The notes under the pieces: generated by a model | Seen by the model: the letters and a program-made list of their open reading frames with translations, nothing else | What the model was told of the DNA's origin: nothing | Database searches by the model: none | From: a bacterium SCSIO 12643 | GTDB lineage: Bacteria > Bacteroidota > Bacteroidia > Flavobacteriales_G > Salibacteraceae | DNA: 64,000 nucleotides | Direction: 5' to 3' | Assembly: GCA_024398135.1 (NCBI GenBank) | Contig: CP073750.1 | Location: forward strand, 1,550,001-1,614,000 | Made by a program: the position numbers and the translations under genes | Shown: piece by piece, positions 24,135 to 26,778 of the stretch | Position numbering within the stretch: the first letter of the stretch is position 1 | How the letters are laid out: the number at the start of each line of letters is the position of its first letter

Positions 24135-24201
24135 TTGAACGGATTGTCCAATTAGTTGGACGGATATTCCCATTCATTCGATTGATGTTATCTGACTTTT
24201 G
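24135..24201 (+). promoter_or_regulatory. AraC-regulon promoter: 41-bp element and -7-like box before the SRPBCC gene
   Basis: The element at 24135-24175 begins TTGAAC, contains the perfect inverted repeat GTCCAA-TTAG-TTGGAC, and ends GATATTCCCATTC. It is followed after exactly 18 bases by GACTTTTG (24194-24201), a -7-like box with one mismatch to TAnnTTTG. The second copy at 25694 has the same layout. The start codon of the SRPBCC gene is 32 bases further. Confidence 0.7.
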
Positions 24202-24233
24202 TATTCACAGTTTAATCATTAAAAATCAAAGTC

Positions 24234-24797
24234 ATGAAAACAAAAATCAATCTCATTATCATTCTTGTATTTTCAGTAATTATCACAAATGCGCAGTCTT
24301 TTACAGTTGAACGAATCATTAATGCTCCGGCTGAAAAAGTCTGGAAAGTTGTAGGTGAACAATACGGAGAAATCGCAAATTCCCATCCCACTGTAGTCGC
24401 ATCAGATTATATTAGTGATGATTCCCAGGGAGGTGAAGGATGTGAACGTGTGTGCTATTTAAACGAAGAAAAAACTAAATACACCCACGAGAAACAACTT
24501 GAATTCGATTCCATTAATTTTCGATTCAAAGTTCAAATATCTCATGTGGAGGGTATTCCTTTAAATCCTGATTTTTCTTATGGAATTTATAAAGTGATTC
24601 CAATTGACGAAAACTCTTGTAAACTAGTCATCGAAATGAACCTTAAAACCTCACCTGCGTTTATGGGTATTTTGGCTAAAGGTAAATTCAAGAAAAACAT
24701 TGAAGATTATCAAATTGCGATTCAACATAATGTTCTTACCGGAGAACATGTGACAAAAGACAACTTCAAAGAAATCAAAAAGAAGTATCAAAGCTAG
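24234..24797 (+). CDS. Secreted SRPBCC-family protein
   Basis: A 187-residue protein with a signal peptide (cleavage after about residue 21, ITNAQS) and a START-like SRPBCC domain. The domain opens with FTVERIINAPAEKVWKVVGE and ends with a long helix (AKGKFKKNIEDYQIAIQHNV). SRPBCC proteins bind lipids, polyketides or other hydrophobic ligands; the ligand here is unknown. An exported SRPBCC protein is somewhat unusual. It carries the first copy of the AraC-type element in its promoter and is followed by a terminator, then by the araC gene. Confidence 0.8.
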   Translation: MKTKINLIIILVFSVIITNAQSFTVERIINAPAEKVWKVVGEQYGEIANSHPTVVASDYISDDSQGGEGCERVCYLNEEKTKYTHEKQLEFDSINFRFKVQISHVEGIPLNPDFSYGIYKVIPIDENSCKLVIEMNLKTSPAFMGILAKGKFKKNIEDYQIAIQHNVLTGEHVTKDNFKEIKKKYQS

Positions 24798-24807
24798 ATT
24801 AAATCTC

Positions 24808-24831
24808 AGGGGATCTAAGTATCCCCTTTTT
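24808..24831 (+). terminator. Terminator after the SRPBCC gene
   Basis: AGGGGAT (24808-24814), a 6-base loop, and ATCCCCT (24821-24827) form a stem followed by a T-run, 10 bases after the stop codon. Confidence 0.85.
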
Positions 24832-24853
24832 CTTCTCCAAAATTTCTTTAGTT

Positions 24854-25714
24854 ATGATTTTATCACGTCAGCACTTCAAAGTTCAAGGCAAGATTATCCT
24901 GGAAAAAGTGCAATTTCAACCTCCGTTAAATGCCGATTCCGCCATGCATAATGAAGCATGTTTCTTACATGTGGTTCGCGGAAAGTCTCGATTATACAGT
25001 CCAACTCAAAATCTTTCGGTTCAATCCCAAGACAACCTGTTGATGAAATGCGGACACTATCTAAATAAGTGGTTTCAAAATGAAAATGCACAACCTAACG
25101 AAGCTGTTCTTATCCATTTTTATCCGGATATCTTAAAATGGGTGTATCAAGATCGATTACCCGATTTCTTCTCATTCTTACCTTCGAAGTCTTCGCAGAC
25201 TGTTGCAAAGATTGAAACGGATCAAATCATCCAAAACTACATGGAGCAACTGTTACATTGTTTTGAACACCCTCAACTCGTGAATGATGAATTCATTAAA
25301 ATAAAAATTCAGGAACTGATTTTTATACTCACGCAATCGCAAAACAACAGTCAAATTATCACCATTTTAAACCAGCTCTTTCATCCCACAGAATATGCTT
25401 TTAAGGATGTGATTCACAAAAATATTTTTGAAGATCTCAGTTTAAATGATCTGGCTACCATTTGTGGGATGAGTTTATCTTCTTTTAAAAGGAAGTTTAG
25501 AACTGTCTTCAATACCAGCCCAAAGAATTATATCATCGAACAAAGACTTCTAAAAGCAGCAGAATATTTAAAGAATTCTTCATTACGAATCTCTGAGATC
25601 GCATTGGAATGTGGATTTAACGATATGGGCTATTTCTCCAAATCTTTCTCGTCAAAATTTGAATATTCTCCAACAGATTATCGAAAACTTCACTTGAACC
25701 AATTGTCCCATTAG
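24854..25714 (+). CDS. AraC-family transcription regulator
   Basis: A 286-residue AraC-type regulator. The N-terminal part (about 1-165) is a cupin-like sensor, and the C-terminal 100 residues hold two helix-turn-helix units, LNDLATICGMSLSSFKRKF and ISEIALECGFNDMGYFSKSF, ending in the usual SPTDYRK. The gene sits between two nearly identical 41-bp elements, one before the SRPBCC gene and one over its own stop codon before the SDR gene. I infer that it activates both. The inducer is unknown. Confidence 0.9.
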   Translation: MILSRQHFKVQGKIILEKVQFQPPLNADSAMHNEACFLHVVRGKSRLYSPTQNLSVQSQDNLLMKCGHYLNKWFQNENAQPNEAVLIHFYPDILKWVYQDRLPDFFSFLPSKSSQTVAKIETDQIIQNYMEQLLHCFEHPQLVNDEFIKIKIQELIFILTQSQNNSQIITILNQLFHPTEYAFKDVIHKNIFEDLSLNDLATICGMSLSSFKRKFRTVFNTSPKNYIIEQRLLKAAEYLKNSSLRISEIALECGFNDMGYFSKSFSSKFEYSPTDYRKLHLNQLSH

Positions 25715-25760
25715 TTGGACGAATATTCCCATTCCTTTAACCACACACACAGCACCTTTG
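25694..25760 (+). promoter_or_regulatory. AraC-regulon promoter: second 41-bp element before the SDR gene
   Basis: Second copy (25694-25734), matching the first at 37 of 41 positions. It overlaps the last seven codons of araC and its stop. The inverted repeat is GTCCCA-TTAG-TTGGAC, with one changed base. After 18 bases comes CACCTTTG (25753-25760), a -7-like box, and the SDR gene starts 52 bases later. Confidence 0.7.
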
Positions 25761-25812
25761 TATCATCAAAAAACTTAAAGTCAATTATTTATTATCAAAA
25801 AATATTATCGCT

Positions 25813-26778
25813 ATGAACCAAACAGAACAACTTTCAGTATTTATTACGGGCGCTAATGGAGGAATGGGACTGGATACATCAAAAATTTTAGTTAGCTCCG
25901 GGATTCATAGACTGGTTATGGCTACCAGAACTATGGATAAGGCCGTTACAGCCAAAAGTAAAATTGATACAGCCTATCCAGGTCATCAAACTCAAATTGA
26001 AGTCGCATCGGGATTTGATATGACCGATCCAAAGGCTATAGAAAAAGCTGTACACAAACTTCCCAAAGACCAACCTTTTAATATCATATTTCTACAAGCC
26101 GGAGGAGTTATTTTCAGCAACGACTATTCATATTTGACATGGAATAATACTGCGATTGAAAAAACCATTTTTCAAAATGTCATAGGTCCATATATCACAT
26201 TACTTCAACTCAAAAAACATGGACTGATTGCTCCAAATGCAAGAGTTGTATTCGCAGGAGGTGAAGGTGCACGTGGAATTCCCGGAATGATTGAAAAACC
26301 AGTATTTGACACCATCAATGATTTTAAAAACTATATCTACGGAAAAGGAAATTTACCGAAATACAATCCTATGAACGCTATTGGTGTTTCTAAACTAATG
26401 GGTGCCGTACTGAGTCAAAAGCTTTCCTCACTGGAAAAAAATATGGATGTGATTTGGTTTACGCCTGGCTTAACCTATGGAACAAATGGTTTAGCTGCTA
26501 AACCCGCGATCCAAAGATGGTTTATGGAAAAGATCATGTTCGGAATCGCAGGATTTCTCGGATTCGCACAAAGTCCCATGCAAGGGGCTCAAAAATATGT
26601 AGATTGCTTATTAGGTGTCTATGGTAAAAATGGTGATGTTCTGGGCGCACCTGAAGGCAAAGTTTTGGGTGATCTTGTAGATCAAAAACCTATGAACCAA
26701 ATGTTCACCAATACAGCGTTACAAGATGAGTTTTGGCATATTCTAAATACCATTTACATGCCTTACCACGTGATATAA
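25813..26778 (+). CDS. SDR-family protein, atypical catalytic site
   Basis: A 321-residue short-chain dehydrogenase/reductase-like protein. The NAD(P)-binding glycine motif TGANGGMG is at about residues 13-20, and the LQAGG strand follows near 97. The usual active-site YxxxK is changed: at AIGVSKLMG (about 196-204) the lysine remains but the tyrosine position is isoleucine. It may be a reductase with altered chemistry or a non-catalytic NADP sensor. It follows the second AraC-type element. A weak hairpin follows the stop. Confidence 0.8.
   Translation: MNQTEQLSVFITGANGGMGLDTSKILVSSGIHRLVMATRTMDKAVTAKSKIDTAYPGHQTQIEVASGFDMTDPKAIEKAVHKLPKDQPFNIIFLQAGGVIFSNDYSYLTWNNTAIEKTIFQNVIGPYITLLQLKKHGLIAPNARVVFAGGEGARGIPGMIEKPVFDTINDFKNYIYGKGNLPKYNPMNAIGVSKLMGAVLSQKLSSLEKNMDVIWFTPGLTYGTNGLAAKPAIQRWFMEKIMFGIAGFLGFAQSPMQGAQKYVDCLLGVYGKNGDVLGAPEGKVLGDLVDQKPMNQMFTNTALQDEFWHILNTIYMPYHVI

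Follow-up and report, generated by a model that had tools for sequence, protein, structure and literature searches.

Two predicted tandem operators flank, and very probably serve, an ExsA_N-type AraC regulator in bacterium SCSIO 12643

In the window analysed here, a stretch of 64,000 nucleotides from contig CP073750.1 (positions 1,550,001 to 1,614,000), two copies of a 41-bp element lie on either side of a gene for an AraC/XylS family regulator of the ExsA_N type, and their sequence and arrangement indicate that they are very probably the operators of the AraC encoded between them. We are fairly confident, from the layout of the sites, that this ExsA-like AraC would bind head-to-tail and contact RNA polymerase as a class II activator. 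The switch is real and of a well-known general type; this particular one is apparently undescribed. A search of the available literature found no described AraC-SRPBCC-SDR regulon, nor any account of the half-site sequence, the gene set, the position at the araC 3' end or the constant 18 bp to the -7 box.

Anatomy of the element and its promoter

The two copies are on the forward strand at 24135-24175 and 25694-25734 and are identical at 37 of 41 positions. This pair had been noticed in an earlier sequence-only reading, and recomputation returned the same coordinates and the same count; when the region was resampled 60 times with a first-order Markov model, no two 41-mers agreed at more than 28/41 positions. 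The remaining geometry of that reading was reproduced as well, with one copy before the SRPBCC gene (24234-24797) and the other before the SDR gene (25813-26778), the araC stop codon (25712-25714) lying inside the second copy, and exactly 18 bp in both copies between the element and an off-consensus -7 box that is followed by TAT. The features of the region are as follows.

24135..24154, + strand: distal half-site of predicted operator 1, TTGAACGGATTGTCCAATTA, at about -71 to -52, with its repeat 21 bp away
24156..24175, + strand: proximal half-site of predicted operator 1, TTGGACGGATATTCCCATTC, at about -50 to -31, covering the -33 region
24194..24201, + strand: -7 box GACTTTTG, 18 bp past the element, off-consensus at base 1
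24234..24797, + strand: SRPBCC gene, 187 aa, Polyketide_cyc2 PF10604 (Pfam E 2.9e-10), predicted target of operator 1
24808..24827, + strand: hairpin with a T run after it, resembling a terminator, in the gap between SRPBCC and araC; -10.2 kcal/mol, z -1.7, and matched by a pattern scan
24854..25714, + strand: araC, ExsA_N regulatory domain and two HTH motifs, proposed activator
25694..25713, + strand: distal half-site of predicted operator 2, TTGAACCAATTGTCCCATTA, in the last araC codons, encoding the end of ...LNQLSH (stop)
25715..25734, + strand: proximal half-site of predicted operator 2, TTGGACGAATATTCCCATTC, 21-bp repeat of the distal half-site
25753..25760, + strand: -7 box CACCTTTG, 18 bp past the element
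25813..26778, + strand: divergent SDR gene, 321 aa, adh_short (Pfam E 1.3e-8), predicted target of operator 2

What the sequence-only reading had missed is the internal structure of the elements: each consists of two half-sites of about 20 bp in direct repeat, with a period of exactly 21 bp. Copy 1 reads TTGAACGGATTGTCCAATTA-G-TTGGACGGATATTCCCATTC and copy 2 reads TTGAACCAATTGTCCCATTA-G-TTGGACGAATATTCCCATTC; in each copy the two half-sites agree at 15 of 20 positions, and a repeat finder run on copy 1 returned a unit of 21. The half-site consensus is TTGRaCnAAWWnnCCMAAT, in which counts pooled over 40 half-sites delineate two boxes, TTGRaC and CCMAA, with about one helical turn between them, as expected for the two HTH motifs of each AraC protomer. 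Direct repeats spaced by 21 bp are the typical operator layout read by AraC-type dimers. A palindrome in copy 1 (GTCCAA-TTAG-TTGGAC) was rejected because copy 2 has GTCCCA, leaving the direct repeat as the conserved symmetry.

The -7 box of Flavobacterium psychrophilum sigma-A is TAnnTTTG and lies at -12 to -5 (PMC9723704), and the half-site positions relative to the start were numbered by this placement. Transcription is predicted to start near 24206 from operator 1 and near 25765 from operator 2, and the proximal half-site occupies the place of the expected -33 element. The absence of a -33 TTG, claimed earlier for the two copies, applies to both of them and to all of the 20 homologous sites checked, and the claim of an off-consensus -7 box likewise extends to these sites, 18 of which have a base other than T at position 1 and only 2 a T.

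Specificity within the genome

At 0-1 mismatch the half-site 20-mer occurs four times in the 4.1-Mb genome, and the four occurrences are the half-sites listed above. The full architecture, defined as TTGRNC, 21 bp, TTGRNC, 18 bp and nAnnTTTG, has three exact matches in the genome, namely the two in the window and one at 2847905-2847971, and the same pattern written backwards has zero matches in any of 35 genomes. The sequence-only reading had named occurrence at many unrelated loci as the outcome that would speak against it; the genome-wide run gave only these three matches, and the pattern searches rule out a dispersed repeat. The third match adjoins another ExsA_N-type araC (2847966), which is followed by a 134-aa gene, whose relatives in the same place match DUF4345, and then by an SDR gene.

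The genome has 34 genes with an AraC-type HTH (HTH_18), 30 of which were scanned, and the site was present at two of the 30 loci, both of the ExsA_N type. No such site was found within 1.4-1.5 kb on each side of the ExsA_N genes at 1227213 (45% identical; L049) and 2850228, so the expectation that the paralogue at 1227213 carries the site failed. Direct repeats of any sequence with 21-bp spacing were few at the other AraC genes of the genome, little above the reversed control. The AraC gene at 2074313 (L136) is followed by a different 21-bp direct repeat, in which TCTTTTCAAACAAAT occurs twice on the minus strand near 1738 and which ends 18-19 bp before TACTTTTG.

Conservation in other genomes

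A genome of the same genus (G001) has the gene order SRPBCC - araC - DUF4345 - SDR, with an AraC 49% identical to that of the window and both operators in the same two places. The check suggested earlier, a search for the same genes in related genomes, thus recovered SRPBCC, araC and SDR, plus DUF4345, together with both sites. A query of the genome collection with the AraC protein alone returned just two matches, both distant; loci beyond the genus were gathered by AraC homology or SRPBCC homology, not by the presence of the site.

In a spacing scan of 38 loci and the window, half-site spacings of 14-32 were combined with gaps of 5-33 (551 cells). It returned 26 matches, 17 of them in the single cell (21, 18) and none elsewhere in the row or column of that cell; the reversed-sequence control returned three matches, none of them in cell (21, 18). 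A weight matrix was used for whole sites. Its 20 training sites had been found partly by the same pattern, though held-out and reversed controls were included. Its null maximum was 10.7 over 724,510 reversed positions; operator 1 scored 52.1, operator 2 scored 56.5, and 14 held-out AraC loci scored 18.9-50. With a matrix made from the genus only, 20 of 37 other loci exceeded its own null maximum (19.4). At 19 of these the site was that of the full matrix, and the remaining one, L079, offers a weak candidate whose -7 box is poor.

Among 34 loci that have an AraC relative, 30 carry the site; it is on the same strand as araC in every case and usually at or just past the stop codon. Sixteen sites start inside the araC coding sequence, at most 29 bases from its end (seven at -20 and five at -8), and 10 further sites lie within 279 bp downstream of araC. 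In the registers whose site starts 20 or 8 bases ahead of the stop codon's end, the encoded protein tails include NQLSH, DQISK, DQKTK and LS, each directly before the stop. The gene downstream of the site varies. It is most often SRPBCC; the others are DUF4345-SDR, a DUF4345-like gene with an alpha/beta hydrolase, SDR, the CMD family, the AhpC family and a 163-aa protein without a Pfam match. Five SRPBCC loci without AraC (L102-L106) have no site, with scores below 10, which removed the reading of the element as an SRPBCC promoter element. Since the site is found at 30 of 34 AraC loci and at none of the AraC-less SRPBCC loci, and its targets vary, the element tracks the regulator and not the target.

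Several further sites were observed in these loci. A second, weaker operator candidate (22.0) lies 44 bp before the annotated araC start at L100:4900-5784 (G686), where it would be a case of direct autoregulation. At L110:1501-1567 (G003:C104:10386-10452) a strong predicted operator (54.0) precedes an SRPBCC gene whose product looks cytosolic, and no AraC gene lies within about 1.5 kb; we read this locus as a detached regulon member. The same 21-bp/18-bp geometry follows directly after a gene with an AraC-type tail at L111:1501-1567 (G008:C1:722426-722492), the product of which resembles a hybrid two-component sensor, and this geometry may hold for AraC-type activators of Bacteroidota in general. 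A protein of 163-167 aa that starts M.LSGLGIFHTIIG and is probably membrane-bound is a recurrent operator target in several genomes of two families (L075, L077, L080, L081, L083, L084 and others), and the member that was scanned has no Pfam match. On the minus strand of L078, 2.2 kb past the main site, there is a truncated second ExsA_N-like araC fragment with an operator-like site (34.5). At L054:4759-5604 (G009) a stop codon interrupts the AraC relative, whose operator candidate, at 14.7, is weak, as in a decaying copy or an assembly error.

The regulator

The protein encoded by araC matches ExsA_N with 78.8 bits (cut-off 27) and HTH_18 with 78.2 bits, in addition to two HTH_AraC stretches, and is an AraC/XylS family regulator of the ExsA_N type. 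The ExsA_N domain also matches in six of six aligned relatives. In the predicted model the helices of the C-terminal HTH are present, and the regulatory domain matches ExsA 4zua with a TM of 0.82 (by target length). Control by a protein partner (ExsD) in place of a small molecule would be a mark of the ExsA type; no anti-activator was identified in the araC neighbourhood. The hairpin between the SRPBCC gene and araC might be a terminator, as judged from its fold and T run, and no counterpart was seen in the G001 genome.

The target genes

The SRPBCC protein belongs to the SRPBCC/START helix-grip family, as judged by its PF10604 match and by its model (pLDDT 90), which has the helix-grip fold and for which 7tmu is the nearest PDB entry; Foldseek matches after 7tmu include PYL2, which binds a plant hormone, and Bet v 1. 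The earlier description of the protein as secreted is supported by its signal-peptide-like N-terminus, and a signal peptide is probable. Because of this start and the helix-grip fold with hormone-binding and Bet v 1 matches, a reasonable guess for its role is that of an exported protein carrying a small hydrophobic molecule.

The SDR was rightly called atypical. It keeps the TGxxxGxG motif and Lys194, and in the alignment the catalytic Ser and Tyr are replaced by Gly149 and Ile190, so that the Ser-Tyr-Lys triad (YxxxK) of classical SDR enzymes is lacking. The orthologues in G001 and G008 are also without the Tyr, and the paralogues in L052, L053 and L060 keep both residues, in FAS and YGxxK. 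By its sequence the protein may be a binding protein or an unusual enzyme.

Proposed mode of action and alternative readings

We infer the following mode of action. A signal received through the ExsA-like regulatory domain would free or activate AraC, two protomers of which would bind head-to-tail to half-sites 21 bp, or two helical turns, apart, each protomer reading TTGRaC and CCMAA with its two HTH motifs. The bound protein would replace the missing -33 element at a fixed 18 bp from a weak -7 box and recruit RNA polymerase through contact with the sigma factor, in class II activation as for ExsA and XylS. Through operator 1, active AraC would turn on the exported SRPBCC protein, and through operator 2 it would turn on the SDR. 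The promoters have the layout of the class II type, with the proximal half-site predicted to overlap the -33/-35 region at a fixed distance from the -7 box. The invariant spacing and orientation, combined with poor core elements, point to class II activation. The activator-dependent promoter proposed from the window is now strongly supported by 21-bp tandem half-sites, a fixed 18 bp and a single orientation beside orthologous AraC genes in many genera. As araC comes after the SRPBCC gene, with a putative terminator between them that looks leaky, operator 1 might feed araC as well; read-through of the hairpin would then give positive feedback, in this gene order only.

AraC-type proteins can also repress, and a proximal half-site over the -33 region could exclude polymerase when occupied, but we think it unlikely that AraC is a repressor or dual regulator at these operators: with a -33 TTG missing in 20/20 sites and an off-consensus first -7 base in 18/20 the bare promoters look weak, and repression needs neither the 18-bp distance nor the orientation, yet both are fixed. 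Binding by another regulator of the same fold, with the adjoining AraC a mere neighbour, as in cross-regulation by another AraC-type protein, is quite unlikely; 34 HTH_18 genes in the genome and the related operator at the ExsA_N araC at 2847966 provide candidates, but across the phylum the site goes with AraC orthologues, it is absent from AraC-less SRPBCC loci, and the two operators of the window match each other better (37/41) than either matches any other site. That same 37/41 identity is a point in favour of a repeat that is mobile or dispersed, or of a recent duplication with no regulatory function, but to this reading we assign a negligible probability: the four half-sites at 0-1 mismatch are the only ones in 4.1 Mb, the likeness of the two copies does not extend past the element, different genomes share the architecture, and both the genome-wide architecture search and the spacing scan contradict it.

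Comparison with known systems

Activation by AraC from these operators would resemble that by ExsA of Pseudomonas aeruginosa, which has a pair of sites at each promoter, one of them covering the -35 region, and for which the spacing to the -10 is critical (PMC4552939). The regulator here shares the Pfam domain ExsA_N, its best domain-level structural match is ExsA (4zua), and its promoters likewise have two sites, one over the -35/-33 region, with strict spacing; they are, however, of the Bacteroidota -7 type, and no type III secretion genes or ExsC/D/E partners were noticed; the likeness is one of domain and layout. XylS at Pm reads two direct repeats, each of a box A and a box B, with two HTH motifs, and the activator and polymerase sites overlap (PMC5481539). 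The repeats of two boxes are found here too, with a predicted overlap of the same kind, but the boxes are TTGRaC-N7-CCMAA in place of the TGCA-N6-GGTA of Pm, the regulatory domain is ExsA_N, and the targets are not aromatic catabolism genes. In the same phylum, for the AraC-type DNA-binding domains of the Bacteroides hybrid two-component (HTCS) regulators and RhaR, predicted direct repeats recur at 21 bp, given as an average distance or as a periodicity (PMC3878776, PMC3870299), so this kind of operator was already known. The targets there are different, HTCS being membrane-bound sensors of polysaccharides and RhaR the regulator of rhamnose use, and the passages on these operators state no fixed distance to a -7 box.

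Implications

It is possible, though we hold it with somewhat less than even confidence, that across Bacteroidota an ExsA-like AraC lineage carries its operator in its own last codons, in a few registers, so that regulator and operator would travel as a cassette capturing different downstream stress or detoxification genes; the C-terminal tail would then be dictated by DNA binding and not by protein function. The Bacteroidota sigma factor and promoters differ from the textbook ones, and the present sites describe, to single-base precision, a predicted activator-dependent promoter type for the phylum, with tandem 21-bp half-sites, 18 bp, nAnnTTTG and no -33 box. The recognition sequence would make the regulons of many unannotated ExsA_N-type AraC genes in the phylum predictable, opens a way to learn what the SRPBCC, SDR and DUF4345 genes found repeatedly with this regulator do, and may be a starting point for inducible expression tools.
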